DNA from: Alphaproteobacteria bacterium
GTDB taxonomy: Bacteria > Pseudomonadota > Alphaproteobacteria > Thalassobaculales > Thalassobaculaceae
DNA length: 37,125 nucleotides
Direction: 5' to 3'
Assembly (NCBI GenBank): GCA_013203465.1
Contig: JABMNR010000117.1
Span: forward strand, 1-37,125
Position 1 is the stretch's first letter. The number at the start of each line of letters is the position of its first letter. Both the position numbers and the translations under genes were made by a program. The notes under the pieces were generated by a model that did no database searches, was not told the DNA's origin, and was given only the letters and a program-made list of their open reading frames with translations. Positions 2,616 to 25,214 of the stretch are shown here, piece after piece.

Positions 2616-2618
2616 GGC

Positions 2619-3224
2619 TCAATCCTCCTTTGGCGTATCGACGGCGACGGTGCGGGGCAGGGCGGCAAGCTTGGCTCCGTGCACCAGGATCAGATCGACG
2701 CCGCGCGGGAACAGTTCACGGTTCGCGGCCCAGTCGTCCCACAACCCGGCACGCACGCCTTCCACCGTCAGACGGTGGGTTGTCTCGATGCCGGGACCGG
2801 ACAGGGTGAGACCGCCATCGGTGCCGAGGCCGTCGACCTGGACAATCACCGTGGTCGAGTGTTCCGGATAGGCGTCGTCACCAAGCGCGAAATCGCCGAG
2901 CGGCGGTAGGTCCGCTCCGGTCGTGATGGCGAAGGCGGCGTCGGCCGGTCGGTCGATGATGGCGCAACCGCAGTGGAACCTCAAAAAAGCCGTCACCTCC
3001 GGACGATCGAACGCCGGCGCCAGCCACAACGGGGTGTCGTGATCGACCAGACCGAGGCAGATCGCGGCGGTCGCCTCGCTAAGCGGCACCGGTGGGGGAT
3101 TGCCGGTCGAGGTGCTTCGAATCACACCGGGGCGGGACATCGCGTCCAGGACCGCACGGAAACTGCGTTGCGCGCCCATCACCGGGTCGCTGAAGCCGGG
3201 TCGAATGCCAACGGTCTGGGTCAT
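2619..3224 (-). CDS. phnH: PhnH, C-P lyase core subunit
   Basis: Component of the PhnGHIJ carbon-phosphorus lyase core; structurally related to PLP-dependent transferases but without the cofactor lysine. The reading frame is open far upstream (to about 3710), but the real start is the ATG at 3224, giving MTQTVGIRPGFSDPVMGAQR, the family's normal beginning, and 201 residues (E. coli 194). Family segments include AQRSFRAVLDAMSRPG near the N terminus and DVPLWLAP-like DTPLWLAPAFD around residue 75. It follows phnG after 2 bases and precedes phnI by 3, matching the standard G-H-I-J order. Confidence 0.95.
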   Translation of the reverse strand: MTQTVGIRPGFSDPVMGAQRSFRAVLDAMSRPGVIRSTSTGNPPPVPLSEATAAICLGLVDHDTPLWLAPAFDRPEVTAFLRFHCGCAIIDRPADAAFAITTGADLPPLGDFALGDDAYPEHSTTVIVQVDGLGTDGGLTLSGPGIETTHRLTVEGVRAGLWDDWAANRELFPRGVDLILVHGAKLAALPRTVAVDTPKED

Positions 3225-3226
3225 GC

Positions 3227-3703
3227 TCAGCTTCCTCGGACCACGGTGAAGAACTCGACCTTGGTGGAGGCCGCCTTGCGGCCACGTTGATCGGTGCGCG
3301 CGTCGTGGCGTAGCGACAGTGGCGCGATCAACACCCGTTCCAAGGTGTCTCGGCGTGACGGGGTCTGCATCATCGCGTCCACCACCGCGGCCAGTTCCGC
3401 GTGCGGCTTGTTGCGCCCCATGACATAGCCGAAGCCGAGGGCGCCGTCGTCGAGTTGCACCGCGCAGCGGGTCACCGTCATCTCGCCAAGGTTGAAGCGT
3501 CCACCCGAACCACCAGCGCGGCCCCGCACCATCACCATGCCAATTTCCGGCGGCCGCACCACGGTCCAGGCCGGCTTGGACGGCAGGTTGCCCCAGAGCG
3601 CGTCGAGATCCGGGAAATCGGCCTTGGACAGCACCGACATCCAGCGCCGCCGTGACTGTTGTTCGGCCGTCTGCTCCGACGGCACGGGATGTTCGTTGCT
3701 CAT
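3227..3703 (-). CDS. phnG: PhnG, C-P lyase core subunit, first gene of the operon
   Basis: Small subunit of the PhnGHIJ complex that activates phosphonates by attaching them to ribose of ATP. The protein is 158 residues (E. coli 150) with the typical SRRRWMSVLSKAD beginning, GMVMVRGRAGGSGGRFNLGEMTVTRC-type core split around residue 65, and a GRNKPHAELAAVVDAMMQ helix. The frame is open upstream to 4255, but that part is antisense to phnF; the ATG at 3703 gives the family length. It is the promoter-proximal phn gene, with a perfect palindrome (3720-3729) 16 bases upstream of its start codon, so it is probably controlled by the divergent PhnF. Confidence 0.95.
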   Translation of the reverse strand: MSNEHPVPSEQTAEQQSRRRWMSVLSKADFPDLDALWGNLPSKPAWTVVRPPEIGMVMVRGRAGGSGGRFNLGEMTVTRCAVQLDDGALGFGYVMGRNKPHAELAAVVDAMMQTPSRRDTLERVLIAPLSLRHDARTDQRGRKAASTKVEFFTVVRGS

Positions 3704-5950: not shown

Positions 5951-7387
5951 TCAGGGCAGGGTGTAGGCGGTTTTGACCGTGGTGTAGAACTCAGCGGCAT
6001 AACGGCCTTGCTCGCGCGGTCCATAGCTCGACCCTTTGCGGCCGCCGAACGGCACGTGATAGTCGACGCCGGCGGTTGGCAGGTTCACCATCACCATGCC
6101 GGCCTCGGCGTTGCGCTTGAAGTCGCTGGCGTATTTCAACGACGTGGTGGCGATACCCGAGGACAACCCGAAAGCGGTGTCGTTGGCGACCGCGCGCGCT
6201 TCCTCGTAATTCTTGACCCGGATCACGCTGGCCACCGGGCCAAAGATTTCCTCTTGGTTGATGCGCATCGAATTGTCGGTTTCGGTAAACAGCGCCGGCT
6301 GCAGATAGAAACCCTCCTTGCCGCGATTCAACCGCTCGCCGCCAAACACCAAATTCGCGCCTTCCTTCTGACCGACGGTAAGGTAATCAAGGTCTTGCTG
6401 CAGCTGCGTTTCGTCGACGACGGGACCGATATCGGTTCCCTCGGCCAGGGCATCGTCGATCTTCAGTGTCTTCATGCGCGCGACCACGGCGTCGACGAAA
6501 CGATCGTGGATGCCTTCGGTCACGATCAGCCGGGACGAAGCGGTGCAGCGTTGTCCGGTCGAGAAAAAGGCACCGTTCACCGCACAGCCGACAGCGACGT
6601 CAAGATCGGCGTCGTCCAACACCACGAATGGGTTCTTACCGCCCATCTCAAGTTGGACCTTGGCCAGTCTGCTCACGCAGGTCGCGGCCACGTGTTTGCC
6701 GGTCGCGACCGAGCCGGTGAAGCTGACCGCGCCAATGGCCTCGGCGTTCAGGATCGCCTCGCCGACCACCGAACCGCGTCCCATCACCAGGTTGAACACA
6801 CCCTCCGGCAGACCGGCGCGGGATAAAATCTCGGCCAACGCCCAGGCGCAGCCGGGAACCAAGTCGGCGGGCTTGAAGACGACGCAGTTGCCGTAGGCCA
6901 GCGCCGGCGCGATCTTCCAGGCCGGAATGGCGATCGGGAAGTTCCACGGCGTGATGATGCCCACGACGCCAACCGGCTCGCGAGTGATCTCGACATCGAC
7001 GCCGGGACGTACGCTGGCCACCTTTTCACCCTGGATGCGTAGGGCCTCACCGGCGAAGAATTTGAAAACCTGCGCGGCGCGGGTGGCTTCGCCGATTCCC
7101 TCGGGCAGGGTCTTACCTTCCTCGCGGGACAACAGACGTCCGAGTTCCTCCCGTCGGGCCATGATCTCGTTGCCGACGAATTCCAGGACGTCGTAGCGTT
7201 GTTGCGGTGTCGACCGGTTCCAGCCGTGCGCGGCGGCCTTGGCGGCGTCGACGGCGCTGGCGACGCCGGCGGCATCGGCGTGGGCGTAGGTGCCGACGGT
7301 GTCGGCCAGATCGGAGGGATTGACGTTATCCCGGGTGTTGGCGCCCTCGGTCCAGGCGCCGCCGATAAAATTCTGTTGCACGCCCAT
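5951..7387 (-). CDS. NAD(P)-dependent aldehyde dehydrogenase, possibly 2-ketoglutarate semialdehyde dehydrogenase
   Basis: ALDH-superfamily enzyme oxidising an aldehyde to its acid. Key residues are present: N149 in TPWNFP, general base E247 in LEMGGKNP, and catalytic C281 in FFSTGQRCTASS; the cofactor loop FTGSVATGK is at about 223-231. From the ATG at 7387, preceded by AAGGGAGAG, the protein has 478 residues, the usual size; the frame is open 25 codons further upstream. The N terminus (NFIGGAW...NVNPSDLADTVGTYAHAD) resembles 2-ketoglutarate semialdehyde dehydrogenases of sugar-acid and hydroxyproline breakdown, but no such pathway genes are adjacent, so the substrate is open. It is a single-gene unit, divergent from the transporter operon. 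Confidence 0.85.
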   Translation of the reverse strand: MGVQQNFIGGAWTEGANTRDNVNPSDLADTVGTYAHADAAGVASAVDAAKAAAHGWNRSTPQQRYDVLEFVGNEIMARREELGRLLSREEGKTLPEGIGEATRAAQVFKFFAGEALRIQGEKVASVRPGVDVEITREPVGVVGIITPWNFPIAIPAWKIAPALAYGNCVVFKPADLVPGCAWALAEILSRAGLPEGVFNLVMGRGSVVGEAILNAEAIGAVSFTGSVATGKHVAATCVSRLAKVQLEMGGKNPFVVLDDADLDVAVGCAVNGAFFSTGQRCTASSRLIVTEGIHDRFVDAVVARMKTLKIDDALAEGTDIGPVVDETQLQQDLDYLTVGQKEGANLVFGGERLNRGKEGFYLQPALFTETDNSMRINQEEIFGPVASVIRVKNYEEARAVANDTAFGLSSGIATTSLKYASDFKRNAEAGMVMVNLPTAGVDYHVPFGGRKGSSYGPREQGRYAAEFYTTVKTAYTLP

Positions 7388-7625
7388 CGGTGCTCTCCCT
7401 TGACGGTGTGTGTCGACGTAATTTGACGCGTCGTTGCCGTTTGAGTACCGCCCGTAGCGCATGCTGACAAGCGGCGCTCCGTTGCGTTTGAGGCATCGTC
7501 GTGTTTACCCTCTCGCTCCGCCGCGTTGGCGGAAACAAGATGCGGGGTAACCGCACGTGGTTTATGGGACGGATTTCGTGAGACCAGCGGCGCTTGCCGC
7601 ACGATGGTCAAAAAAGGGGACACAG

Positions 7626-8927
7626 ATGAACAAGACGACGATGCTTCGCGCGGCCGGGATCGGGCTGGCGGCCATGGTGGCCGCGAGCGGATCCGCGCTG
7701 GCGCAGAATACCGTGAAAGTTGCCGTGCCGGCGTTTCTGTCGGGGCCGGCGGCCGGACCGTTCGGTGTGCCGGCGCGCAACGGCGCCGAGATGGTGATCG
7801 ACGCGATCAACAACGGCAAGCTGCCGGCACCCTACGACAGCAAGGGCTTTGCCGGCGCCACCATCGAGGTCGATTTTATCGATGAGTCCGGTGGCAACAC
7901 CAAGCAGGTCGCGGAGTACCGCAATCTGGTGCAGAAGCGCGGCATGAACGTGATCATCGGCTACATCTCGTCCGGCTCGTGCGCGGCGCTGGCGCCGGTG
8001 GTCGACGAGTTGAAGACGCTGACGGTGTTCGCGGTCTGCGGTACGCCGCGGGTCTTCGAGGAAGCGAAGCGGCAGTACGTGTTCCGCACCATGAGCCACG
8101 CCACCGCCGATAACGTGGCCGCGGCTCACTACGTCAAGGACATGTTCCCGGACGTCAAATCCTATACCGGGGTCAATCAGAATTACGCCTGGGGTCAAGA
8201 CAGCTGGCGTGATTTCGATCTGTCGATGCAGCAGCTGATGCCGTCGACAAAGGCGTCCGACAAGCTGCAGTTTCCGAAGATCTTCGCCGGCCAGTACGGC
8301 TCCGAGATTTCCGCCCTGTCGCTGGACAAGAGCGACTTGATTCACTCCTCGTTCTGGGACGGCGATCTTGAGGGGTTCATCTTCCAGGCCACCGCGCGGG
8401 GCCTGTTCAAGCAGAAGAAAGTCGTCTTCACGGTGGGCGGCACGGCGGCCTATCGCTTGGGCAAGAAGATGCCCGATGGGTTGATCCTTGGCGCCCGGGG
8501 CCCGTACGGCATCCTGGTGCGGGACCGCAAGACGGCCCTGAACGAGTGGTTCATCAATACTTACAAGGATCGTTATGGCACCTATCCGTCGGGTCCGGCC
8601 TATCAGTACGGCCAGGCGGTGCTCGCCACCAAGATCGCCTATGACAAGGCGGCCAAGGCGGCCGGTGGCTTCCCGAGCCAGGATCAGGTGATGGCGGCGC
8701 TGAAGGGCCTGGAGTTCGAGAGCTTCTCGACCACCGTCAAGATGGCGCTGGGTGACGGGCATCAGGCCGTCACCGAGAATGTCTACGGCATCACGAACTG
8801 GAATGCCGATGACGCTGAGCCCGGTGTACGCGATGTGAAGTTCTATCCGGCGGAATGCATCATGCCGCCGGCTGGCGCGACCAGCGAGGACTGGATCAAA
8901 GGCGGCATGAAGGGGGCCAAGTGCTGA
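7626..8927 (+). CDS. Periplasmic substrate-binding protein of a branched-chain amino acid-type ABC transporter
   Basis: A 433-residue Leu/Ile/Val-binding-protein-like receptor (type I periplasmic fold). The N terminus is a clear Sec signal peptide: basic start MNKTTMLRAAG, a hydrophobic core, and a SALAQ cleavage site near residue 26. The ATG at 7626 is preceded by AAAGGGGA; the frame is open slightly upstream from 7557. It is the first gene of a set with two permeases and two ATPases, which is the complete HAAT/Liv transporter makeup. The family binds amino acids, amides, urea and aromatic acids, so the ligand cannot be named. The 238-base gap before it separates it from the divergent dehydrogenase and should hold the operon promoter, which I could not place. 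Confidence 0.88.
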   Translation: MNKTTMLRAAGIGLAAMVAASGSALAQNTVKVAVPAFLSGPAAGPFGVPARNGAEMVIDAINNGKLPAPYDSKGFAGATIEVDFIDESGGNTKQVAEYRNLVQKRGMNVIIGYISSGSCAALAPVVDELKTLTVFAVCGTPRVFEEAKRQYVFRTMSHATADNVAAAHYVKDMFPDVKSYTGVNQNYAWGQDSWRDFDLSMQQLMPSTKASDKLQFPKIFAGQYGSEISALSLDKSDLIHSSFWDGDLEGFIFQATARGLFKQKKVVFTVGGTAAYRLGKKMPDGLILGARGPYGILVRDRKTALNEWFINTYKDRYGTYPSGPAYQYGQAVLATKIAYDKAAKAAGGFPSQDQVMAALKGLEFESFSTTVKMALGDGHQAVTENVYGITNWNADDAEPGVRDVKFYPAECIMPPAGATSEDWIKGGMKGAKC

Positions 8928-9022
8928 GCCACCTGCTTTGATCCGGTGATCATCGGCCGCCGGCCGGACGCGTTGTCGTCTGGCCGGCGTGCCACCGCAT
9001 TCTCTCTGCTGGAGCCGCATTG

Positions 9023-9919
9023 ATGGAAACGGCCATCACCATCCTGATCGATGGTCTTGTGTTCTCGTCTTACCTGTTCCTGGTGTCGGTCGGGCTGACC
9101 ATCATCTTCGGGGTGATGAAGATTCTGAACGTCGCCCATGGAAGCCTCTATGCCTGGGGCGCCTATACCTCGGCCTACTTGATCGGCCTCTGGTCGGACG
9201 CCGGGTTGGGCGACGGCGGCACCTTCCTGATGATCGCGGTGGCGGCGATCGTGGTCGGGGTCATCCTGGGGCTGATCCTGGAGCGCGGCCTGATCCAGTT
9301 CATGTACGCCCGTGACGAGGTGATCACGGTGCTGGCGACCTTCGCCACCTTCCTGATCCTGGAGGACGTGATCCTGCTGGTGTTCGGCGTCAACCCGTAT
9401 TTCGCCTATCAGCCGATGGCCTATCTGGACTCGGTCGAGATCGGCGGCATCCAGCGGGATGTCTACTCACTGACCTTGATCGCTGTTGCCGTGGTGGTCG
9501 GCGTCTCGCTTTGGCTCGGCCTGACCAAGACCAAGTGGGGCAAGCTGCTGACGGCGGTGATCTACGATCGCGAGCTGTCGATCGCCATGGGCATCAATGT
9601 CACCCGGGTGTTTATCGTCACCTTCGTGCTCGGGGCGGTGCTCGGCGCGCTGGGCGGCGCCTATGTGGCGCCCACGGTATCGGTGGCGCCCGGCTTTGGG
9701 GTCGAGGTGATCGTGCTGTCCTTCGCCGTCGTGGTGATCGGCGGCATGGGCAGCATTCCCGGGGCGATCATCGGCGCGTTGACCGTGGGCATCGCCCGCG
9801 CCATCGCGGTTCACCAATTGCCGGAAGTGGAGTTGTTCGTGGTCTATGGCGTGATGGCGTTGGTGCTGGTGTTCCGGCCGGAGGGGTTGTTCGCTCCGGC
9901 CAAGGCCCGCAAGATCTGA
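9023..9919 (+). CDS. livH: Branched-chain amino acid-type ABC transporter permease, LivH family
   Basis: Inner-membrane permease of 298 residues with about eight hydrophobic segments, beginning at the N terminus (ITILIDGLVFSSYLFLVSVG). The family motif GLTIIFGVMKILNVAHGSLY follows at about residues 23-42 and a C-terminal VVIGGMGSIPGAIIGAL loop, which contacts the ATPases, is near 235-252. A TTG three bases upstream is in frame, but the ATG is preferred. It is 95 bases downstream of the binding protein and 10 bases before the second permease. Confidence 0.9.
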   Translation: METAITILIDGLVFSSYLFLVSVGLTIIFGVMKILNVAHGSLYAWGAYTSAYLIGLWSDAGLGDGGTFLMIAVAAIVVGVILGLILERGLIQFMYARDEVITVLATFATFLILEDVILLVFGVNPYFAYQPMAYLDSVEIGGIQRDVYSLTLIAVAVVVGVSLWLGLTKTKWGKLLTAVIYDRELSIAMGINVTRVFIVTFVLGAVLGALGGAYVAPTVSVAPGFGVEVIVLSFAVVVIGGMGSIPGAIIGALTVGIARAIAVHQLPEVELFVVYGVMALVLVFRPEGLFAPAKARKI

Positions 9920-9929
9920 GGCCCGGGCC

Positions 9930-10895
9930 ATGGAACCCTCGCGCGATTGGACCATCCCCGGCCTGACCATCGGGTTCGCCATCGTCGCCGTCTCCGGCGC
10001 CGTGTTCCTGCCGGACTGGCTGTTGAACCAGATGGTGATCTCGTTCTCCCGCGCCTTGGCGGTCGTCGGCTTGATGGTGTTGTGGCGGACCGGCCTGGTG
10101 TCGTTCGGCCATGCGCTCTATTTCGGGCTTGGCGCCTACACCGTGGCGCTGCTGGGCAAGGAGTTTGGTGTTTCCGATGTGTTGATTACCCTGCCGGCGG
10201 CGGCGCTAGCCTCGGCGGCGGTGGGGGTCGGCCTCGGTTTCATCATCCGCAAGTACCGCGAGATCTTTTTCGCCATGCTCAGCCTGGCGTTCTCGATGGT
10301 GCTGTATGGCATCGTGGTGAAAACCGAGGCGCTGGGTTCGACCGATGGGTTCAGCGTGCTGTCGCCAACGCTGCTGGGGATGTCCTCCGATGATGCCGGC
10401 GTCACTCTGGTCAGCCTGTTCCTGGGGTTGTGCCTGGTCGGCTGGGCGGTGGCGGTGTTGGTGCACCGGTATCTCAAATCGGTGCTCGGCAGCCTGACGA
10501 CGGCGATCCGCGACAATGAGATCCGGGTCGAATACCTCGGCTATTCGGTCGCCGAGGCGATCCACGGAAAATATGTGATGTCGGCGGCGCTCGCTGGGTT
10601 GGGCGGCGGGTTCCTGGCGATCTCCCTGGGTCAGGTCGATCCGGATTCCATGATCAACTGGACGGTCTCCGGCGAGCTGGTGTTCGTCACCATCCTGTCC
10701 GGCCCCGGCAGCGTGGCGGCACCGTTCATCGGCTCGCTGATCTTCGAATTGATCCGGACCTATGCGTTTGAATGGTTGCCATACGCCTGGCAGCTGATCG
10801 TCGGTGCGACGCTGTTGATCATCATCTTCTTCCTGCCGGACGGGGTGTGGTCGTTGATCACCCGGTTGGCGGCGGGCCGGGGAGACAAGCGATGA
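9930..10895 (+). CDS. livM: Branched-chain amino acid-type ABC transporter permease, LivM family
   Basis: Second inner-membrane permease, 321 residues, strongly hydrophobic. It carries the LivM-type segment GLVSFGHALYFGLGAY (about residues 55-70), the KYREIFFAMLSLAFSMVLYG region near 107-126 and a C-terminal TILSGPGSVAAPFIGSLIFE coupling loop. It pairs with the LivH-type permease to form the translocation pore. Its TGA overlaps the ATG of the next gene by 3 bases (ATGA), so the permease and the ATPase are probably translationally coupled. Confidence 0.9.
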   Translation: MEPSRDWTIPGLTIGFAIVAVSGAVFLPDWLLNQMVISFSRALAVVGLMVLWRTGLVSFGHALYFGLGAYTVALLGKEFGVSDVLITLPAAALASAAVGVGLGFIIRKYREIFFAMLSLAFSMVLYGIVVKTEALGSTDGFSVLSPTLLGMSSDDAGVTLVSLFLGLCLVGWAVAVLVHRYLKSVLGSLTTAIRDNEIRVEYLGYSVAEAIHGKYVMSAALAGLGGGFLAISLGQVDPDSMINWTVSGELVFVTILSGPGSVAAPFIGSLIFELIRTYAFEWLPYAWQLIVGATLLIIIFFLPDGVWSLITRLAAGRGDKR

Positions 10896-11692
10896 CCGCG
10901 ATCCTGGAAGCGCGCGAGATCAACAAAACCTTCGGTGCCGTGACGGCGGCCAAGGACATCAATATTTCGGTGGTCGAGCACGAGATCGTCGGCATCATCG
11001 GCGCCAATGGCGCGGGCAAGACCACCTTCGTGAACATGGTAACCGGCTGGCTGAGGCCGAGCACGGGACAGATCTTGTTCGAGGGCCGTGACATCACCGG
11101 CATGGCGCCGCGCCGGATTACCCGGCTCGGGATCTGCCGGTCGTTCCAGGTCGCCCAGGTGTTCATGACGATGACGGTATTCGACAACCTGATGATCGCC
11201 CTTGGCATCGCCGAATCCCGCGGCCTGTTGGCGCTTCTGCCCTTGCGGCGCGGCGACTTGGAAGCGCGGGCGGATGCGATTCTGCAGCGCTATCAGATCG
11301 TCGAGTATCGGGATCAAGTGTCGAGCACGTTGCCGCAAGGGGTGCGCAAGCTGCTCGACATCGCCATGGCGATGGTGGCGCGGCCGCGCATCCTGTTGCT
11401 GGACGAGCCGACCAGCGGCATTTCCGTCGAGGAGAAGTTCGGCCTCATGGACATCGTCATGGGGGCGTTGAAGGATGAGGGAGTGACCGTCCTGTTCGTC
11501 GAGCATGACATGGAGATCGTCGAACGGTACGTCAGCCGCGTTATCGCCTTCTATCAGGGTGAGATCATCTGCGACGCGGCGCCGGCCGAGGCGTTGGTCG
11601 ATCCCAAGGTGAAGGAGTTCGTGATCGGTGGTGAACCACAGGGCTGGTCGACCCACGACACGGCCGGCGCCGGGGAGCGAGCCGATGCTTGA
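10892..11692 (+). CDS. livG: Branched-chain amino acid-type ABC transporter ATPase, LivG family
   Basis: 266-residue ATPase. Walker A is GANGAGKT (37-44), Walker B ILLLDE (167-172) and the switch histidine is H205 in FVEHDME. The C-loop normally reading LSxGQ is TLPQGVRK (146-153), so the canonical serine-glycine pair is altered although the rest is intact; the partner ATPase keeps a standard LSGGQQ. Such asymmetry occurs in heteromeric ABC ATPases. The ATG overlaps the livM stop, and the stop overlaps the start of the next ATPase by 8 bases, so the start choice is firm although the frame is open upstream. Confidence 0.9.
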   Translation: MTAILEAREINKTFGAVTAAKDINISVVEHEIVGIIGANGAGKTTFVNMVTGWLRPSTGQILFEGRDITGMAPRRITRLGICRSFQVAQVFMTMTVFDNLMIALGIAESRGLLALLPLRRGDLEARADAILQRYQIVEYRDQVSSTLPQGVRKLLDIAMAMVARPRILLLDEPTSGISVEEKFGLMDIVMGALKDEGVTVLFVEHDMEIVERYVSRVIAFYQGEIICDAAPAEALVDPKVKEFVIGGEPQGWSTHDTAGAGERADA

Positions 11693-12347
11693 GATCAAGG
11701 GGTTGGATGTCGATATCGGACCGGTTCCCGTTCTCCGTCAGGTCGAGCTGGCGGTGCCGACGGGGGAGATGTGCGGGTTGATCGGTCGCAACGGTGCCGG
11801 CAAGACCACGTTGATGCGGTCGATCATGGGGTTGTTGCGGGCCAAGGCCGGCGAGATGTTGTTCGATCACCATGATCTGGTGAAGGTGCATGACTACAAG
11901 CGGGCGCATTTCGGTATCGGCTACATGCCGGAGGACCGCAAGCTGATCCCGGGGTTGACCGCCGAGGAGAACGTGATGCTGCCGGTGTGGTCGACCGGGA
12001 TCGAGGACCCGGAGGATCGGCTCGACTGGATCTATGGGCTGCTTCCGGAGGTTCGTGAGTTCCGCGATCGTCCGTCGATGAGCCTGAGCGGCGGCCAACA
12101 GAAATTGGTCGCGTTGGCGCGGGCGCTCATGGTCGGCGAGCGGTTGCTGTTGCTGGATGAGCCGACCGAGGGGATCGCGCCGGTGCTGGCTCGGCGGATG
12201 GCTGACGTGCTGGCCGATCTGAAGCGCGAGGGCCTGTCCGTACTGGTGGCGGAATCGAACGACACTCATCTGCGCGGACTTCTCGATCGAACCTACGTGA
12301 TCGAACGCGGTAGTGTAGAAAGGCAACAAGCGGCCTCGGTCGCCTGA
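11685..12347 (+). CDS. livF: Branched-chain amino acid-type ABC transporter ATPase, LivF family
   Basis: Second ATPase, 220 residues, with all ABC motifs canonical: Walker A GRNGAGKT (34-41), C-loop SLSGGQQK (133-140), Walker B LLLLDE (154-159). LivF-specific landmarks include GIGYMPEDRKLIPGLTAEEN (about 77-96), where the usual VPE reads MPE. It is slightly shorter than E. coli LivF (237). The gene starts inside the end of livG (8-base overlap) and is followed by a 57-base gap to the cupin gene. Confidence 0.9.
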   Translation: MLEIKGLDVDIGPVPVLRQVELAVPTGEMCGLIGRNGAGKTTLMRSIMGLLRAKAGEMLFDHHDLVKVHDYKRAHFGIGYMPEDRKLIPGLTAEENVMLPVWSTGIEDPEDRLDWIYGLLPEVREFRDRPSMSLSGGQQKLVALARALMVGERLLLLDEPTEGIAPVLARRMADVLADLKREGLSVLVAESNDTHLRGLLDRTYVIERGSVERQQAASVA

Positions 12348-12404
12348 CGCCGATGCGATCCATGACGGCGGGGACAGAGGCCAACAAAATCGACGGGAGG
12401 GGCC

Positions 12405-13070
12405 ATGTCCACGACGGGGTATCAATTACGGCAGATCGTCGACCATCTGGATCCCAACACCGCGTTGACCACCCCTTTGCCGGCACTGAGCCGCGTGCTG
12501 TATTGCCATCGCGGCGCCTTCGACACCGACGACGGAGCCCATTGCGACGAGGATTCGGCGTGGTTCGGCTGCGGTGCCGTGCTCGTCACCGCCGGACCGG
12601 AGGGCGCGGTGATCTGGCGCTGGGAACTCGCCGCCGAGGATGATCCGCCGATCCTTCCCGAGCACCCGGGCATAACCTCCAAGTTAAATGTTGCCGCCGC
12701 GCTGGATGGGCCGGACAGTTCGGCCGATTGGATTTTGCGCTGCGACAGCGTGAAGTTTCCGATCGGCGGTCAGGCGTTCCCGCATGTCCACCAGGGCCCC
12801 GGCATCCGCGTCCTGCGCGAGGGCCAGATCCGGATCGACACCGCCGGAACGGCGCACCATTACCTGCCGGGTCAGGCATGGTTCGAGCCTGGGCCGGAGC
12901 CGGTGTTCGCGCAGGCGAGCGAGCTGGAATGCTCTCGCTTCGTGCGGGTCATGATCCTGCCGTCCGAGCTCAAGGGCAAAAGCTCGATCCAGTATGTGAA
13001 CGCCGAGGATCTCGAAAAACCCAAATCGCAGCGGTATCATGTCTATGTCGACGAACCCATCGAACACTGA
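12405..13070 (+). CDS. Single-domain cupin protein of unknown role
   Basis: A 221-residue cytoplasmic protein. The cupin barrel is visible in its second half: the metal motif GGQAFPHVHQGPGIRVLREG (about residues 121-140) with HxH, and a second strand motif with AHHYLPGQ (about 150-157). The N-terminal half resembles nothing I can name. A strong site, GGGAGGGG, precedes the ATG. The last 32 bases overlap the start of the ThDP enzyme gene and the gene lies 57 bases after livF, so it probably belongs to the transporter operon and may act on the same compound or its product, as a dioxygenase, isomerase or binding protein. The function is not known. Confidence 0.75.
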   Translation: MSTTGYQLRQIVDHLDPNTALTTPLPALSRVLYCHRGAFDTDDGAHCDEDSAWFGCGAVLVTAGPEGAVIWRWELAAEDDPPILPEHPGITSKLNVAAALDGPDSSADWILRCDSVKFPIGGQAFPHVHQGPGIRVLREGQIRIDTAGTAHHYLPGQAWFEPGPEPVFAQASELECSRFVRVMILPSELKGKSSIQYVNAEDLEKPKSQRYHVYVDEPIEH

Positions 13071-14748
13071 TCGCCGCAACGCCGGCAAGATCGGTGGCCA
13101 TATCCTGGTCGATTGCCTGCGTGCTCACGGCGTCGATATGGCGTTCGCCGTGCCGGGCGAAAGCTATTTGGCGGTGCTCGACGGCTTGGTCGACGCGCCG
13201 GAAATCCGCACCATCGTCTGCCGGCAGGAGGGCGGGGCGGCGATGATGGCCGAGGCCTACGGCAAGCTGACCGGCAAGCCGGGAGTGGCCATGGTCACGC
13301 GCGGTCCCGGCGCCACCAACGCCAGCGCCGGGGTACACATCGCGTTCCAAGATTCCACGCCGATGATCCTGCTGGTCGGGCAGGTCGGACGTGAGATGGT
13401 CGACCGCGAGGCGTTCCAGGAGGTCGACTACCGCCGCATGTTCGGCCAGCTGGCCAAATGGGTGGCCCAGATCGACGATCCGGCGCGCATCCCGGAATAT
13501 ATCAGCCGCGCCTTTCATACCGCCGTCTCCGGCCGGCCGGGCCCGGTGGTGCTGGCCTTGCCGGAGGATATGTTGGTCGAGCGCGCGGACGTCGCCGATT
13601 TCGATCCCTACAAACGGACCGAACCGCATCCCGGGCCCGATGACCTGGAGCGGTTCCGCGCTTTGCTGGCCAAGGCCGAGCGCCCGTTTGTCATCGTCGG
13701 CGGCGGCGGATGGGACGCCGGTGTCTCGGCGGATCTCGCCCGCTTTGCCGCGGCCAACGCGCTGCCGGTCGGCGCCTCGTTCCGCTGTCAGGATTATCTC
13801 GACAACCGGCATCCGAACTATGTCGGCCATGTGGGTATCGGCATCGATCCCAAGCTCGGCGCGCGGGTGCGCGACAGCGATCTGCTGATCGTCATCGGCT
13901 CACGGCTGGGTGAGATGACCACCAGCGGGTATGCGCTGCTCGATATCCCGCGCCCGCGCCAGGGTCTGGTGCATGTGCACGCCGGCGCCGATGAGTTGGG
14001 CCGGGTGTATCAGGCCGACCTGCCGGTCCACGCCAGCCAGCGCGCCTTTCTCAAGGCGGTGGCGGCGATGCCGCCGGTCGACCCCTCCGCCTGGGCGGAA
14101 CAGACCCCGGTCGCGCGCGCCGAGTACGAGGCGACGCGGGCGCCGATCGAAGGGCCCGGCGACGTACAGATGAGCGCGATTGCCCGCTGGCTGGATGAGA
14201 CCCTGCCCGAGGACACGATCGTCACCAATGGTGCCGGCAACTACGCCACCTGGATCCATCGCTATTATCGCTACAAGGGTTGGCGCACCTGTCTGGCGCC
14301 GACCTCCGGCTCCATGGGGTATGGTGTGCCGGCCGGTGTGGCGGCGAAGCTGGTGCACCCCGACCGCACCGTGGTCTCGGTGTCCGGCGACGGCTGTTAC
14401 ATGATGCATGGCCAGGAGTTGGCGACGGCGGTTCAGTACGGCGTTAACACCATTTTCCTGGTGGTGAACAACGGCATGTTCGGCACCATCCGCATGCACC
14501 AGGAGCGGGAGTATCCGAACCGGCTCAGCGCCACCGATCTGCGCAACCCGGATTTCGCGGCGCTGGCCCGGGCCTATGGCGCGCACGGCGAGACGGTGAC
14601 CCGGACCGAGGAATTCGCCCCGGCGTTCGAGCGGGCGCGAACCGCCGGGATCCCGGCGGTGATCGAAATCCAGGTCGACCCCGAGGCGCTGACCGTCGCC
14701 CGCACCCTGAGCCAGATTCGCGCGACCGCCCTGGCCGAAGGGCGCTAA
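13039..14748 (+). CDS. Thiamine diphosphate-dependent enzyme, acetolactate synthase-like
   Basis: 569-residue ThDP enzyme with the order Pyr domain - central domain - PP domain. Catalytic Glu64 (CRQEGGAAMMAE), the ThDP/Mg motif beginning GDG (450-452) and ending NN (477-478), and the GPGATNA loop (89-95) are intact. No regulatory acetolactate synthase small subunit is nearby, so a catabolic role (decarboxylase, carboligase or lyase) is more likely than valine/isoleucine synthesis. The start overlaps the cupin gene by 32 bases; an in-frame ATG two codons on (13045) is an equal candidate. With the transporter and cupin it probably forms one catabolic operon. Confidence 0.8.
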   Translation: MSMSTNPSNTDRRNAGKIGGHILVDCLRAHGVDMAFAVPGESYLAVLDGLVDAPEIRTIVCRQEGGAAMMAEAYGKLTGKPGVAMVTRGPGATNASAGVHIAFQDSTPMILLVGQVGREMVDREAFQEVDYRRMFGQLAKWVAQIDDPARIPEYISRAFHTAVSGRPGPVVLALPEDMLVERADVADFDPYKRTEPHPGPDDLERFRALLAKAERPFVIVGGGGWDAGVSADLARFAAANALPVGASFRCQDYLDNRHPNYVGHVGIGIDPKLGARVRDSDLLIVIGSRLGEMTTSGYALLDIPRPRQGLVHVHAGADELGRVYQADLPVHASQRAFLKAVAAMPPVDPSAWAEQTPVARAEYEATRAPIEGPGDVQMSAIARWLDETLPEDTIVTNGAGNYATWIHRYYRYKGWRTCLAPTSGSMGYGVPAGVAAKLVHPDRTVVSVSGDGCYMMHGQELATAVQYGVNTIFLVVNNGMFGTIRMHQEREYPNRLSATDLRNPDFAALARAYGAHGETVTRTEEFAPAFERARTAGIPAVIEIQVDPEALTVARTLSQIRATALAEGR

Positions 14749-16862: not shown

Positions 16863-17372
16863 TCAGTCGTGACCGCCGTGGCGGCCACCATGATAGCCGC
16901 CTTTGCCGCCGTGGTGGCGTGCCATGCGCTCAATCATGCGGCCCAGTTCGATCTTGTCGACCGATCCGTTCCCGTCGCGGTCCACGTGCGCCATCATGCG
17001 TCCACCCATGAAGCCGAGCTCGTCCAGGCTCAACTTGCCGTCGCCGTCGCCATCGAGCCACCGGACCATCCGCTGGGCACGCTCGACTTTACCGCCATCA
17101 TGCATCGCGGCGAATTCCTCGGCACTCAGCAGGCCGTCGCCATCGCTGTCGGCGGCTTTGAGCCGAGCGGCGCGGTGGGCGGCGAGTTCGTCCCGGGTGA
17201 CGACGCCATCCTTGTTCGTATCCATCGCCTCGAACCGCTCGATCATGCGCTCGGCACGGGGAGAGGTGGTAGCGCCGTCGCGGTCGCCGCCGCCATGAGC
17301 GATGGCCAGGGCGGGTACGGCGACAGTTGCCAGAAGGGCGGCGCCGATCGTCAGGTATTTGCTGCGGGTCAT
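16863..17372 (-). CDS. Exported EF-hand protein with four loops and a His/Gly-rich tail
   Basis: A 169-residue protein. A signal peptide (MTRSKYLTIGAALLATVAVPALAIA shortened: hydrophobic residues 7-25) leads to four EF-hand loops with canonical D-x-D/N-x-D-G spacing: D51-E62, D75-E86, D107-E118 and D131-E142. It ends with a tail rich in His and Gly (153-169, e.g. HHGGKGGYHGG), a likely transition-metal-binding segment. The ATG at 17372 is preceded by GAGAGAA; the longer upstream frame lacks a site. It is 21 bases upstream of the longest ECF sigma frame, so it may be the first gene of that operon. A periplasmic calcium-binding or metal-buffering role is likely. Confidence 0.82.
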   Translation of the reverse strand: MTRSKYLTIGAALLATVAVPALAIAHGGGDRDGATTSPRAERMIERFEAMDTNKDGVVTRDELAAHRAARLKAADSDGDGLLSAEEFAAMHDGGKVERAQRMVRWLDGDGDGKLSLDELGFMGGRMMAHVDRDGNGSVDKIELGRMIERMARHHGGKGGYHGGRHGGHD

Positions 17373-17536: not shown

Positions 17537-18472
17537 ATGGCCGCGCCGCAGAACAAAGTGATCATCACCTGTGCCGTGACCGGCTCAATCCACACACCGT
17601 CCATGAGCCCGTACTTGCCGATCACCGCCGACGAGGTGGCCGAGCAATCGATCGCCGCCGCCGAGGCCGGCGCCTCGATCCTGCATCTGCACGCGCGCAA
17701 CCCCGATGGCAGTCCGACGCCGGACCCGAAGGCGTTCATGGAGTTCCTGCCGCGCATCAAGCAGAACACCGACGCGGTGGTGAACATCACCACCGGCGGT
17801 GGTCACGGGATGACCCTGGAGGAGCGTCTGGCCGCCGCCTTCACCGCCAGTCCGGAGATGACCTCGCTCAACATGGGCTCGATGAATTTCGGCCTGTTCC
17901 CGATCCTCGACAAGATGAAGGACTTTCAGCACGAGTGGGAGCCGAAATTCCTGGAAAACAGTCGTGATTTTATTTTTCGCAACACCTTCAAGGATATCGA
18001 ATACATTCTTAAGGAATTAGGCGAAGGTCATGGCGTCCGCTTCGAGTACGAATGCTACGATGTCGGCCACCTGTATAATCTCGCCCACTTCCTCGAACGC
18101 GGGCTGGTGAAGCCGCCGCTGTTCGTGCAGACCATCTTCGGCATCCTCGGCGGCATCGGCGCCGACACCGAGAACCTGATGCACATGAAACGCATCGCCG
18201 ACAAGCTGTTCGGCGACCAGTACCGCTGGAGCGTGCTGGCCGCCGGCCGGCATCAGCTGGCGTTCACCACCATGGCGGCGATCAACGGCGGCAACGTGCG
18301 CGTTGGCATGGAGGACAGCCTCTACATCGCCAAGGGCGAGCTGACCAAGAGCAACGCCGAGCAGGTGAGCAAGATCCGCCGCATCATCGAGGCTCTGAGC
18401 CTGGAAGTGGCCTCCCCGACCGAAGCCCGGCAGATGCTGGACCTGAAGGGCGGCGATCTGGTGAAGTTCTGA
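17537..18472 (+). CDS. BKACE-family beta-keto acid cleavage enzyme
   Basis: 311-residue TIM-barrel enzyme of the 3-keto-5-aminohexanoate cleavage (DUF849) family, which condenses a beta-keto acid with acetyl-CoA to give acetoacetate and a new acyl-CoA. Family motifs seen: IITCAVTGSIHTPSMSPYLP (about 9-28), the zinc-site HLHARNPDGSPTPD (about 51-64) and NITTGGGHGMT (about 80-90). The ATG at 17537 has GGGGGA 9 bases upstream; the frame is open further upstream without a convincing start. The substrate differs between family members and cannot be read here. Codons about 139-160 form a markedly AT-richer patch than the rest. The next gene starts on the last base of its stop (TGATG). Confidence 0.88.
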   Translation: MAAPQNKVIITCAVTGSIHTPSMSPYLPITADEVAEQSIAAAEAGASILHLHARNPDGSPTPDPKAFMEFLPRIKQNTDAVVNITTGGGHGMTLEERLAAAFTASPEMTSLNMGSMNFGLFPILDKMKDFQHEWEPKFLENSRDFIFRNTFKDIEYILKELGEGHGVRFEYECYDVGHLYNLAHFLERGLVKPPLFVQTIFGILGGIGADTENLMHMKRIADKLFGDQYRWSVLAAGRHQLAFTTMAAINGGNVRVGMEDSLYIAKGELTKSNAEQVSKIRRIIEALSLEVASPTEARQMLDLKGGDLVKF

Positions 18473-19287
18473 TGCCCACCCTGAACATCACCGGCAAGAC
18501 CACGGTCTACGGCATCATCGCCGACCCGATCGATCACGTGCGCGCGCCCATGGTGTTCAACCCGGCGTTCGAGGCCTATGGCATCGACGCGGTCATGGTG
18601 CCGTTTCATGTGACGCCCGACGATCTGCCGGCCGCGATCGCCGGGATGAAGGTGATGCCGAACTTCGGCGGACTGACCATTACCGTGCCGCACAAGGTGG
18701 CGATGATGGCACTGTGCGATGAGTTGGGCGCCAGCGCCCGGCGGGTCGGGGCGGCGAACGCCGCGCGGTTCACCGAGGACCGGCGGCTGATCGGCGACAA
18801 TTTCGACGGCCAGGGCTATGTCGCCGGGGTGACCAAGGGCGGTTTCGATTTCACCGGCAAGCGGGTGTTGCAGGCCGGCGCCGGCGGGGCCGGCATGGCG
18901 ATCGCCTTCGCGGTGGCCGAGGCCGGGGCGGCGGCCATCACCATCGCCAACCGCACCGTGGCCAAGGCCGCGGCGCTGGCGGACCGGGTGCGGGCGGCGT
19001 TCCCCGCGTGCGACGTCACCGGTACCGCGGCCGACATCGCTCCCGCCGGGTTCGACATCATGGTCAACACCACCTCGCTCGGCCTGCACGCGGGCGATGC
19101 GCTGCCGATCGACGTCGACGCGCTGGACCCCGGCACGGTGGTCAGCGAGATCATCATGATCCCGGAGGAGACCGAGCTGCTGGCCCGGGCCAAGGCCAAG
19201 GGGCATCCGGTGCACTATGGCCGACCGATGCTCGACGAGCAGGCGCGGCTGATCGCGGCGTTCATCGGCTGCCCGTTCCCCGACTAG
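18472..19287 (+). CDS. Shikimate dehydrogenase-like oxidoreductase with altered substrate site
   Basis: 271 residues, AroE fold. The dinucleotide loop GAGGAG (136-141), the NRT segment typical of NADP-using members, catalytic K75 (TVPHK), N96, D112 (NFDGQG) and the MLDEQ helix are present. The two serines that hold the shikimate carboxylate (DPI-x-H-S-x-S-P in true AroE) are V23 and A25 here (DPIDHVRAP), so shikimate is an unlikely substrate. It starts within the stop codon of the BKACE gene, so the two are coupled and may act on one pathway. It is probably a catabolic AroE paralogue (like YdiB/RifI-type relatives), not the housekeeping aroE. Confidence 0.75.
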   Translation: MPTLNITGKTTVYGIIADPIDHVRAPMVFNPAFEAYGIDAVMVPFHVTPDDLPAAIAGMKVMPNFGGLTITVPHKVAMMALCDELGASARRVGAANAARFTEDRRLIGDNFDGQGYVAGVTKGGFDFTGKRVLQAGAGGAGMAIAFAVAEAGAAAITIANRTVAKAAALADRVRAAFPACDVTGTAADIAPAGFDIMVNTTSLGLHAGDALPIDVDALDPGTVVSEIIMIPEETELLARAKAKGHPVHYGRPMLDEQARLIAAFIGCPFPD

Positions 19288-21232: not shown

Positions 21233-21264
21233 GCCGCACCACGGATCGGCCCAAGGAGGCGATG

Positions 21265-21672
21265 ATGGCGGACAATCAACTAAGCGTCTGGAACGAGGAA
21301 CGCCTGGAGCAGTTGGTCATACTGTGGGGCGAGGGTCTGTCGATCACCCAGATCGGCTTGCGCCTTGGGTTGTCGCGCAACGCCGTGGTCGGCAAGGTTC
21401 ACCGCATGGGGTTGCCCAAGCGGCAGTCGCCGATCGTGCGCAGCGATAAGCCGAAGGTGCCGCGGGCGCCGATCCAACGCCGCCGGGCGGTACCGTTGAC
21501 GCTGGAGCAGTGGGACCGCAACACCTGCAGCTGGCCGAGTGGCGATCCGAAAACCGACGATTTCAGTTTCTGCGGCGAGAAGGTGGAGCCCGGCCGTCCC
21601 TATTGCACGGCCCACTGTGCGGTGGCTTACACCGTCGCGAGGGAAAATCTGAGCAAGATGAAGGTGGCCTGA
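21265..21672 (+). CDS. gcrA: GcrA, cell-cycle regulator
   Basis: Alphaproteobacterial transcription factor that binds the sigma-70 holoenzyme and activates promoters with methylated GANTC sites. 135 residues: N-terminal helix-turn-helix with WNEERLEQLVILWGEGLSIT, then QIGLRLGLSRNAVVGKVHRM, a basic linker rich in Arg/Pro, and a C-terminal domain with CSWPSGDP, FCGEKVEPGRPYC and HCAVAY cysteine segments that binds sigma region 2. Two tandem ATGs occur (21262, 21265); AAGGAGG (21253-21259) lies 2 and 5 bases upstream respectively, so the second is preferred. It is preceded by the control elements described above and followed by a strong hairpin. Confidence 0.95.
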   Translation: MADNQLSVWNEERLEQLVILWGEGLSITQIGLRLGLSRNAVVGKVHRMGLPKRQSPIVRSDKPKVPRAPIQRRRAVPLTLEQWDRNTCSWPSGDPKTDDFSFCGEKVEPGRPYCTAHCAVAYTVARENLSKMKVA

Positions 21673-22544: not shown

Positions 22545-25214
22545 ATGGACCGAGACGCCCCCTCCACGCCGCCGCAACCGATCCGGCGCGCCGACTACGC
22601 CCCGCCGGCGTATTCGATTGAAACCGTATCCATGACCATCGCGCTGGACGATTTGGCGACGGTTGTGCGGGCGACCCTGACCGGCCGGCCGAACAGCAAC
22701 TCGACAACCGGATCGGTGCCGCTTGTCCTCGATGGCCAGGATCAGGATCTGATCGCGGTGACCCTGAACGGCCAGACGATCCCGCGCGAGGCCTGGGTGC
22801 TGGAGCTGGAGCGACTGACCTTGCCGCCGGTTGACGGCGCCTTCGAGCTGACGATCGAGAGCCGCATAAAACCGCAGGACAACACTTCGCTGGAGGGGCT
22901 GTATCTGTCCGGCGGGATGTACTGCACCCAGTGCGAGGCCGAGGGGTTTCGCAAGATCATCTATTTCCCGGACCGGCCCGACGTCATGGCGGTCTACACC
23001 GTGCGGATCGAGGCCGATCAAGCGCGGTTCCCGGTGCTGCTGAGCAACGGCAACCGGATCGACGCCGGGGATCTGCCGGGCGGGCACCATTTCGCGGTCT
23101 GGCACGACCCGTTCCCCAAACCGTCCTATCTGTTTGCCATGGTCGCCGGTGATTTGGCCTGTGCCGAGGATCGTTTCGTCACCGCCTCGGGCCGGGAGGT
23201 GGCGCTGCGAATCTTCGTCGAGCACGGTAACGAAGGGCGTACCGGCCACGCCATGCGGGCGTTGAAACGGTCGATGCGGTGGGACGAGGAGGTCTACGGT
23301 TTCGAGTATGACCTCGACATCTTCATGATCGTCGCAGTCTCCCATTTCAATATGGGAGCGATGGAAAACAAAGGCCTAAATGTATTTAATGACAAATATA
23401 TACTGGCCGATATTGAGACAGCGTCTGATGTGGATTTTGAACGGATCGAAGGCATCGTCGCGCACGAGTACTTCCACAACTGGACCGGCAACCGAATCAC
23501 CTGCCGCGACTGGTTTCAGCTTTCGCTCAAGGAAGGGTTGACGGTTTTCCGCGACCAGGAATTCTCCGCCGATGTGCATGATCGCGGAGTCAAACGGGTC
23601 GGCGATGTGCGGTTGCTACGGACCGCGCAGTTTCCCGAGGATGCCGGACCGACCGCGCACCCGGTACGCCCGGACAGCTATATCGAGATCAACAATTTCT
23701 ACACCGTCACGATCTACGAGAAAGGGGCCGAGGTGGTGCGCATGATCCATACCTTGCTGGGCCCGGACGGGTTCCGGCGGGGCATGGATCTCTATGTCGA
23801 ACGCCACGACGGCCAGGCGGTGACCTGCGATGACTTCGTTGCCGCCATGGAGGACGCCAACGGCGCCGATCTGTCGAACTTCCGGCGGTGGTACGCGCAG
23901 GCCGGCACGCCGCGGGTGACCGCCCGCTGGACGCATGATCCCGTGGATGAAACCCTGACCCTGGACGTGCAGCAAACCACCCCGCCGACGCCGGGACAAC
24001 CGGACAAACTACCGGTGCCGATCCCGATCCGGCTGGCGTTGATCGGCTCGGATGGGATGCGCCGCCCGCTTCGGATCGCCGGTGACAACGCCGGCACCGA
24101 TGGAGAGGACGAGCGGGTCGTTGTTCTGGAACAAGATCAGCGCCGCATCGTTTTCGAGGGCGTGGCGGATAGGGTCGTGCCATCGCTGTTACGCGGGTTC
24201 TCGGCGCCGGTGACGCTGGACGCGGAGTGGTCGGCCGACGATCTTGGCTTTCTGGCAGCGGCCGATGACGATCCGTTCGGCCGTTGGGAAGCGCTGCAGA
24301 TCCTGTCGACCCGGGCCCTGCTGGCCATGGTCGAGGCAATCCGGGCGGACAGGCCGGCTACCCTCGACAACCGGGTGGTGGATGCGTTTCGGGCGAGCCT
24401 GGTCGACGACCGGCTCGAGCCCGGGTTTCTGGCCGAACTGCTCAGCCTGCCCGGTGAATCGATGCTCGGGCAAGCCATGGCGGTCTGGCACGTCGACGCG
24501 GTGCACCGGGCGCGGCGTTTGGCGCTTCAGACAGTGGGGCACGCGCTCTCCGAGGCCTGGACCGCGCTGTATGATCGGCTGGCGGGTGAGGACTCCAGTG
24601 GCGATTTGTCGACCGCCGCGACAGGCCGCCGTGCCCTGAAGAACCGGGCCTTGGGCTATCTGGTGGCCTCGGAGCACGCGGCGGGGATCGCCCGTGCCGC
24701 CGCCCAAGCCGCGCGCGCCGCGTCGATGACGGATGTTATGGGGGCCCTGGTTGCCTTGAACGACGAGGATCGGCCAGAGCGCCAGATGGCTCTCCAGGCC
24801 TTCCACGACCGTTGGCGGGACAATCCCATCGTGCTGGACAAGTGGTTCGCGCTGGAAGCCGGCTCGGCCCGCCCCGGCACCCTGGAGCGGGTCAGGGGGT
24901 TGCTCGATCATCGGGGGTTCGATCGGCGCAACCCAAACCGGGTGCGGGCGCTGATCGGTGGTTTCACGATGGGCAATGCCGTGCGGTTTCACGCCGCCGA
25001 TGGCTCGGGCTATGCCTTCCTCGCCGATCAGGTGCTGGCGTTGGATCCGGTCAATCCGCAGGTGGCGGCCAGGCTGGTTCAACCTCTGGTGCGCTGGCGG
25101 AAGTTCGATGACGGTCGCCGCCGGGCGATGACCGATGCCTTGCGCCGTGTGGTGCGGCAGCCCACTCTGTCCAAGGATGTGTACGAGATCGCCTCCAAGG
25201 CGTTATCTGACTAA
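22545..25214 (+). CDS. pepN: PepN, aminopeptidase N (M1 family)
   Basis: Zinc aminopeptidase that removes N-terminal residues from cytoplasmic peptides. 889 residues from this ATG (E. coli PepN 870). Motifs are intact: the exopeptidase GAMEN (271-275) and the zinc site H307-E308-x-x-H311 with E330 23 residues after H307, the E. coli spacing. The frame opens at a GTG 5 codons earlier, but the ATG has GAGG at a better distance. The bases around 23341-23410, encoding GAMEN and the following strand, are about one-third GC, against about two-thirds elsewhere in the gene. It stands 30 bases after the SDR gene. Confidence 0.95.
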   Translation: MDRDAPSTPPQPIRRADYAPPAYSIETVSMTIALDDLATVVRATLTGRPNSNSTTGSVPLVLDGQDQDLIAVTLNGQTIPREAWVLELERLTLPPVDGAFELTIESRIKPQDNTSLEGLYLSGGMYCTQCEAEGFRKIIYFPDRPDVMAVYTVRIEADQARFPVLLSNGNRIDAGDLPGGHHFAVWHDPFPKPSYLFAMVAGDLACAEDRFVTASGREVALRIFVEHGNEGRTGHAMRALKRSMRWDEEVYGFEYDLDIFMIVAVSHFNMGAMENKGLNVFNDKYILADIETASDVDFERIEGIVAHEYFHNWTGNRITCRDWFQLSLKEGLTVFRDQEFSADVHDRGVKRVGDVRLLRTAQFPEDAGPTAHPVRPDSYIEINNFYTVTIYEKGAEVVRMIHTLLGPDGFRRGMDLYVERHDGQAVTCDDFVAAMEDANGADLSNFRRWYAQAGTPRVTARWTHDPVDETLTLDVQQTTPPTPGQPDKLPVPIPIRLALIGSDGMRRPLRIAGDNAGTDGEDERVVVLEQDQRRIVFEGVADRVVPSLLRGFSAPVTLDAEWSADDLGFLAAADDDPFGRWEALQILSTRALLAMVEAIRADRPATLDNRVVDAFRASLVDDRLEPGFLAELLSLPGESMLGQAMAVWHVDAVHRARRLALQTVGHALSEAWTALYDRLAGEDSSGDLSTAATGRRALKNRALGYLVASEHAAGIARAAAQAARAASMTDVMGALVALNDEDRPERQMALQAFHDRWRDNPIVLDKWFALEAGSARPGTLERVRGLLDHRGFDRRNPNRVRALIGGFTMGNAVRFHAADGSGYAFLADQVLALDPVNPQVAARLVQPLVRWRKFDDGRRRAMTDALRRVVRQPTLSKDVYEIASKALSD

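Follow-up and report, generated by a model that had tools for sequence, protein, structure and literature searches.

An alphaproteobacterial contig assigned to the Thalassobaculaceae (NCBI GenBank assembly GCA_013203465.1, contig JABMNR010000117.1, positions 1 to 37,125; this whole stretch of 37,125 nucleotides is called the window here) carries a gene for a beta-keto-acid cleaving enzyme (BKACE) that runs directly into a gene of the shikimate dehydrogenase family, which we call DE. The arrangement poses the question of what DE does: whether it works together with BKACE, as an initial annotation had proposed in suggesting that the two degrade an unknown cyclic or beta-keto acid, or whether it has a function of its own. 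Comparison of the two genes with their relatives in other genomes points to the second answer, and we put at roughly 55% the probability that DE is a biosynthetic shikimate dehydrogenase specific to its lineage, whose carboxylate site has been remodeled and which in one branch has come to lie behind a BKACE gene.

In Escherichia coli AroE, shikimate is contacted by S14, S16, N59, T61, K65, N86, D102, Y215 and Q244. Two serines, an asparagine and a tyrosine form the carboxylate side, a Lys/Asp pair is catalytic, and a Thr, an Asn and a Gln face the hydroxyls; the textbook rule is that the two serines hold the carboxylate. We compared these positions between the 46 aligned rows of the clade to which DE belongs and 43 rows counted as canonical, a set that includes locus L139 (a GNPTG-motif protein beside 5-ketofructose reductase) and the duplicates L219 and L240. 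The GARSP-type rows L057, L184 and L214 stand in neither group; L119, L133 and L073 have a gap where the motif would be, the L045 row is short, and L109, which has no called dehydrogenase gene, was dropped. The initial annotation had read V23 and A25 in place of the carboxylate serines, with K75, N96 and D112 kept, and this reading is exact. The loss of the serines is moreover common to the whole clade, in which every row having a letter at these sites shows Val or Ile at the first (44 of 44) and Ala or Val at the second (44 of 44). Position 29 holds F, L, Y or M instead of His (F29 in the window), position 69 holds A, S, T, C or V instead of Asn (T in 6 of the 46 rows, the window's T69 among them), and the canonical tyrosine is replaced by M229, which we take to be the counterpart of Y215 in the E. 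coli enzyme (Table 1). A basic residue at position 251 marks the clade, where canonical rows have L, V, I, T, A or Y. R24 was also considered as a new carboxylate anchor and rejected: all 44 of the clade rows that have a letter at this site show R or H, yet R is found in 12 of the 43 canonical rows as well. T71, K75, N96, D112 and Q257 are invariant in all 46 clade rows, and the NRT sequence that we take to be an NADP-type motif (N160-R161-T162 in the window) is kept across the clade, as NRS or NRN in some members. In these alignments the pocket keeps its hydroxyl and catalytic side while its carboxylate side is rebuilt, a change that is common to the whole clade and is not decay.

DE matches the Pfam family PF08501 with 73.5 bits and also PF01488. 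Its AlphaFold2 model has a mean predicted local distance difference test score of 91, and the 50 Foldseek matches listed for it are all shikimate dehydrogenase family members or proteins containing such a domain, headed by 4k28 and followed by AroE of Geobacillus and 5-ketofructose reductase (7cok/7col, ranks 3-5); TM-scores to AroE structures, 1nyt, 2hk8 and 2egg among them, are about 0.82-0.87. We placed the sequence by a quick maximum-likelihood analysis of 136 rows. The tree leaves out re-fetched duplicates and L001-L007, carries supports from the Shimodaira-Hasegawa-like approximate likelihood-ratio test (SH-aLRT) and no bootstrap, and has E. coli AroE as its longest branch (2.5). DE falls within a superclade of 82 rows (SH-aLRT 99) that is separate from the AroE, YdiB and 5-ketofructose reductase rows, and inside it within the 46-row clade (SH-aLRT 95) that unites L065, 16 SAR116-type rows (8 of them with SAR116 or Puniceispirillum in the title) and 29 rows from the window's family and its near kin; since the clade contains five identical pairs, 46 counts rows and not independent genomes. 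A grouping with housekeeping AroE, which the initial annotation had named as part of what would refute it, is thus not seen, but the distribution of the dehydrogenase is that of a housekeeping AroE, so that the outcome of this check is split.

This distribution is the basis on which we infer the substrate. Among 36 genomes of the window's order, its own included, a DE homologue of at least 50% identity is present in 29, and in 8 of the 36 (G001, G002, G004, G006, G007, G010, G031 and G034) DE is the sole PF08501 protein. The same holds for 14 of the 16 SAR116-type genomes (G041 has three such proteins and G043 two) and for G058. Twenty of these 23 sole-copy genomes were searched for other genes of the pathway: chorismate synthase (AroC) is present in all 20, though G045 and G051 have partial copies that run into the end of a contig, and type II dehydroquinase (AroQ) in 17; G001, G002 and G031, which belong to the 20, are 91-96% complete. 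Conversely, two single-contig 1.5-Mb relatives (G022 and G023, 99% complete) have no PF08501 protein, no chorismate synthase and no type II dehydroquinase. PF08501 proteins occur in 14 of 14 control genomes. The sole-copy genomes and the window have a near-identical pocket signature, and a canonical NADP-type AroE (HSxS/GP, Tyr, NRT) is found in just 3 of the 36 order genomes (G003, G008 and G028).

Inspection of the usual place of aroE gives a consistent picture. In the Xanthobacter and Bosea controls the gene lies between maf and coaE, which are spaced by 853 and 884 nt. We found coaE in 25 of 28 genomes, the two controls included, and 20 of the 23 non-control loci show both maf and coaE. 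In 19 of them, including the locus of the window's own genome with its gap of about 3 nt, the two genes are direct neighbors and no aroE lies between. The gaps, estimated from BLAST matches extended to full length, are about 0-36 nt in 17 loci, 191 nt in G002 and 206 nt in G001; in the twentieth locus (G059) another gene stands between the two. At an E-value of 1e-5, no shikimate dehydrogenase match was detected in any of the 23 non-control coaE loci. The pattern suggests that aroE was lost from the maf-coaE site, rather than never having been there.

Examination of the SAR116-type genomes shows that DE occupies a matching chromosomal site in them, marked by shared synteny with three genes that flank it in the window and that we take to be a divergent EF-hand-type, a GcrA-like and an aminopeptidase-N-like gene (Table 1). 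A BKACE of the window's type was found in none of the 16 SAR116-type DE loci. A BKACE of at least 60% identity occurs anywhere in the genome in five of the 16 (G036, G040, G050, G051 and G052) and is missing from the other 11. DE and BKACE are separable.

Taken together, these comparisons suggest how the present state may have arisen. The DE clade, apparently inherited vertically, would have taken over the reduction of 3-dehydroshikimate with NADPH to shikimate in the SAR116-type bacteria and in the window's family, a takeover that would go with the absence of ordinary aroE from the maf-aroE-coaE locus. The enzyme keeps its catalytic Lys and Asp, the residues T71, N96 and Q257 that face the hydroxyls, and the NADP-type motif. 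On its carboxylate side Ser, Ser, His, Asn and Tyr have given way to Val, Ala, Phe, Ala/Thr and Met, and Arg/Lys251 may provide the new anchor. Within the branch of the window, DE lies behind the BKACE gene, where the window's copy may still carry out the biosynthetic step. The broader proposition, that a second class of shikimate dehydrogenase, rebuilt around Arg/Lys251 after the loss of aroE and in one branch set behind BKACE, serves chorismate synthesis throughout the lineage formed by the SAR116-type bacteria and the window's family, we regard as having even chances.

The gene pair itself stands up to scrutiny. The one-base TGATG overlap of the initial annotation is present as described, and the same pair, when looked for elsewhere, is adjacent in 17 genomes including the window's: BKACE lies upstream of DE in the fetched locus of 15 of the 29 order genomes having DE, and two further pairs come from G058 (L065) and G059 (L085, an Asaia-titled metagenome-assembled genome). 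Four of the 17 (G000, G030, G058 and G059) have the one-base overlap, which is not general among adjacent pairs; the gap is 4-136 nt in 12 and 961 nt in G027. Genes of unannotated loci were called by a simple codon-score script that may miss or misplace starts. The neighborhood is conserved beyond chance, and the two genes are probably co-transcribed in the window's branch.

BKACE, for its part, has a life apart from DE. The window's protein scores 355.5 bits against PF05853 (cut-off 24.8) and 536 bits against the NCBIfam equivalog NF053538 (cut-off 430), and its nearest solved structures by sequence are 3e49, 3e02 and BKACE15 of Paracoccus denitrificans (8rio/8rip). Homologs with E-values up to 1e-80 are present in 28 of the 36 order genomes; 14 of the 29 DE-bearing order genomes lack an adjacent pair, and 10 of these 14 carry BKACE elsewhere. 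In 9 of 12 BKACE loci from the family (L141, L142 and L151-L160, two of them from genomes without a detected DE), a dimethylargininase-like gene comes after BKACE; the one member scanned reached 171 bits against a cut-off of 450. Outside the family (L143-L150), a 3-hydroxyacyl-CoA-dehydrogenase-type gene, assigned to clusters d22 and d51 of which two members were scanned, adjoins BKACE or lies two genes off in 7 of 8 loci. Among seven plasmid BKACE regions, four carry a gene of this type no more than two genes away and one has only an SDR gene. L065 and L170 have a 3-hydroxyacyl-CoA-dehydrogenase-type gene directly upstream of BKACE with a superclade dehydrogenase also present, and the window's genome holds a 59% identical copy of this type of gene on another contig, beside a 734-aa gene. 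Since BKACE elsewhere is often near other dehydrogenases, DE is possible as its oxidizing partner and is not needed in that role; the window's BKACE would be an enzyme in its own right that cleaves beta-keto acids, with no obligate tie to DE. Among the loci from outside the family, that of Bosea (L149:2483-9695) has a consecutive row of what we take to be a sugar-type ABC transporter, then an SDR, a 3-hydroxyacyl-CoA-dehydrogenase-type gene, BKACE and a presumably lactonase-like gene that has no NCBIfam match, an order suggestive of an oxidative route for a deoxysugar.

The surroundings of DE's superclade relatives are varied. A constant set of partner genes was sought and set aside, several unrelated settings being found instead: Liv-type ABC transporter with GMC and SDR genes; amidase with enolase-superfamily and PrpD genes; lactonase with ABC transporter; and SBD_N/NBD_C kinase with aldolase. 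From such unrelated settings no single substrate follows. The plasmid and chromosome clusters L163-L169, L072 and L081 mostly combine a Liv-type ABC transporter, an SDR and a GMC oxidoreductase, and four include an acetolactate-synthase-type thiamine diphosphate (TPP) enzyme; in L163 (P. denitrificans) the dehydrogenase is instead accompanied by members of the altronate dehydratase, DHDPS and FAH families. It directly follows a class II aldolase and an SBD_N/NBD_C gene, which we take to be four-carbon-acid-sugar-kinase-like, in L090:6040-8792 and L091, and in L096 an SMP-30-type lactonase comes after a presumed ABC transporter. A conserved block in the rhizobial-type loci L100:6028-10449, L097, L099, L101, L103 and L110 holds a 655-aa FG-GAP-repeat gene, the superclade dehydrogenase and a second shikimate dehydrogenase paralogue (cluster c0), joined by a xylose-isomerase-like gene in five of the six. 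In most of L048-L055, from sister genera, the clade gene lies between MFS, amidase and enolase-superfamily genes on one side and EamA, MmgE/PrpD and IclR genes on the other. In the window itself a PRK08199-type TPP enzyme comes after a branched-chain-type ABC transporter (7626-14748, + strand), and genes that we take to be phosphonate-lyase-like phn genes lie at 1509-3640 on the - strand. Because the window has a TPP enzyme and a Liv-type transporter upstream, as have several of the plasmid clusters, a ring-opening (IolD-like) TPP-enzyme pathway was considered and dropped, homology of the TPP enzymes not having been established.

Several observations weigh against a biosynthetic role for DE. 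The most serious is the hydrophobic carboxylate side: five polar residues at this end have become mostly hydrophobic or small, an odd pocket for shikimate, and this is the strongest evidence against such a role. DE also falls below the cut-off of every listed NCBIfam aroE, quinate and YdiB-type model (168.4 bits against 200.2 for TIGR00507, its best aroE model; 103 against 349 for the YdiB-type NF009390), and no aro gene stands among its scanned neighbors. Its own genome has three PF08501 proteins, DE, C70 and C133, so that DE is not the sole candidate there and the step could lie with either of the others. C70 (L057, gene 6653-7534, - strand) has a GARSP motif, Tyr at the 229 position and NRT, and lies beside a gene that we presume to be DAHP-synthase-like; C133 has an NAD-type motif, keeps His, Asn and Tyr and is near two presumably dioxygenase-like genes; both fall below the TIGR00507 cut-off. 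Apart from the canonical AroE of three genomes, the PF08501 matches in the order that do not belong to the clade, two of them fragments (G030 C16 and G016 C1), are by their motifs GARSP-type, canonical-like in the pocket with an NAD-type motif, or 4k28-like (QV[RK][ST]P), and a GARSP-type paralogue, mostly with an NADP-type motif, is found in 19 of the 36 order genomes, the window's included, where it could perform the shikimate step. A canonical-type gene accompanies the clade gene in G003, G008 and G028 and, outside the order search, in G041. Type II dehydroquinase was not found in the sole-copy genomes G002, G010 and G044, and the genomes reached through loci come without completeness figures. 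Some superclade members lie in catabolic-looking clusters, two of them (Xanthobacter and Bosea) in genomes with a canonical aroE, which suggests that the superclade fold also serves other reactions. Finally, BKACE is not always supplied with another dehydrogenase: L146 has neither a 3-hydroxyacyl-CoA-dehydrogenase-type nor an SDR gene beside it, and neither type is adjacent in two of the seven plasmid regions (Sphingopyxis and Pararhizobium). The surroundings of C70 form a sugar-nucleotide or glycan-like cluster.

The hydrophobic pocket would be better explained if DE were a core oxidoreductase for some other hydroxylated, carboxylate-poor, polyol-like substrate, with shikimate made by an unrecognized enzyme outside the family. 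A precedent exists in 5-ketofructose reductase, according to passages of PMC7954740 a shikimate-dehydrogenase-related enzyme with a sugar as substrate, whose structures 7cok/7col rank 3-5 among the fold matches and whose relative from T. morbirosei acts as a keto-sugar reductase, and several superclade relatives lie in sugar-type clusters (L096, L090 and P. denitrificans). That reductase, however, falls outside the superclade, with L139, and at least 20 genomes would need a shikimate dehydrogenase of a kind not yet known; we consider this explanation unlikely, while leaving it an appreciable share of plausibility. More doubtful is the pathway of the initial annotation, in which DE would oxidize a beta-hydroxy or cyclic acid to a beta-keto acid for BKACE to cleave with acetyl-CoA. 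Its appeal comes from the adjacency in 17 genomes with four overlapping stop and start codons, from the breadth of BKACE in the order, DE-bearing genomes without adjacency included, and from the proposed deoxyribonate route, in which, according to passages of PMC6365646, BKACE is paired with an SDR-type dehydrogenase that makes the 3-keto acid.

Support for joint degradation is nevertheless weak. The pair is not adjacent in nearly half of the DE-bearing order genomes, DE is kept at the matching SAR116-type site although 11 of those 16 genomes have no BKACE of at least 60% identity, and in L065 and L170 BKACE has its own 3-hydroxyacyl-CoA-dehydrogenase-type neighbor despite a superclade dehydrogenase at hand, in keeping with its frequent placement beside other dehydrogenases elsewhere. 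DE is the sole shikimate dehydrogenase candidate in 20 genomes with chorismate synthase, and its NADP-type motif would fit reduction better than oxidation. Far less credible still is a role in quinate or shikimate catabolism, for which the fold and the retained hydroxyl-side residues would be suitable. No quinate-catabolism gene was recognized among the called genes of the window, whose names are partly our assumption and of which ten were scanned; C133, with its NAD-type motif and its presumed dioxygenase-like neighbors, would be the likelier catabolic member, and the standing of DE as sole copy in 14 of 16 SAR116-type genomes also speaks against such a role. A biosynthetic shikimate dehydrogenase with an altered carboxylate site remains the reading that we prefer.

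Should it hold, annotation by pocket residues would wrongly discard the sole aroE candidate of a marine bacterial group, and the two-serine carboxylate rule would have a lineage-wide exception; should DE not be a shikimate dehydrogenase, these lineages must hold an unknown one. In either case the locus illustrates that adjacency of two genes is poor ground for reading a joint pathway. Literature searches aimed at these particular combinations found no paper joining beta-keto acid cleavage with shikimate dehydrogenase, none on missing aroE in alphaproteobacteria, and none on shikimate dehydrogenase-like enzymes with quinate and substrate specificity.

Table 1. Positions of the gene pair, its diagnostic codons and the genes marking the shared chromosomal site, in window coordinates.
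Feature	Position	Strand	Length	Remarks
BKACE gene	17537..18472	+	311 aa	PF05853, NF053538 (model: 3,5-dioxohexanoate:acetyl-CoA acetone transferase)
Shikimate-dehydrogenase-family gene (DE)	18472..19287	+	271 aa	PF08501, PF01488; non-canonical pocket, NRT motif
TGATG stop/start overlap of BKACE and DE genes	18470..18474	+		Base 18472 common to both
Codons V23-R24-A25	18538..18546	+		AroE has S-x-S here
Codon M229	19156..19158	+		Canonical AroE has Tyr; Met in 46/46 clade rows, Tyr in 42/43 canonical rows
Codon R251	19222..19224	+		Candidate new carboxylate anchor; Arg/Lys in 45/46 clade rows, 0/43 canonical rows
Divergent EF-hand-type gene (presumed)	16863..17372	-		Cluster c3; upstream of DE in 10/16 SAR116-type loci
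GcrA-like gene (presumed)	21262..21672	+		Cluster c1; downstream of DE in 14/16 SAR116-type loci
Aminopeptidase-N-like gene (presumed)	22545..25214	+		Cluster c4; downstream of DE in 16/16 SAR116-type loci

Set against known systems, DE resembles AroE (E. coli; TIGR00507) in its fold, its Lys/Asp pair, its Asn, Thr and Gln, its NADP-type motif and its proposed role; unlike AroE, it is without the carboxylate-side Ser, Ser, His, Asn and Tyr, gains Arg/Lys251, sits on a separate branch and scores below the cut-offs of the aroE models. Its nearest solved relative by both profile and fold is 4k28, a "shikimate dehydrogenase family protein" of Pseudomonas putida KT2440, which belongs to the same superclade and also has Val at the first serine position, but which keeps Ser at the second, has CDPS instead of NRT and lies on a long branch (1.1). 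5-Ketofructose reductase (7cok/7col) shares the shikimate dehydrogenase fold and lacks S-P at the second serine position, where its aligned row starts, whereas in the tree its place is with L139, beyond the superclade; nor does DE group with the YdiB-type quinate/shikimate dehydrogenases. The window's BKACE, by comparison, has a close counterpart of known structure in BKACE15 of P. denitrificans (8RIO, 8RIP and 9HNF), which it matches over its full length with 398 bits.

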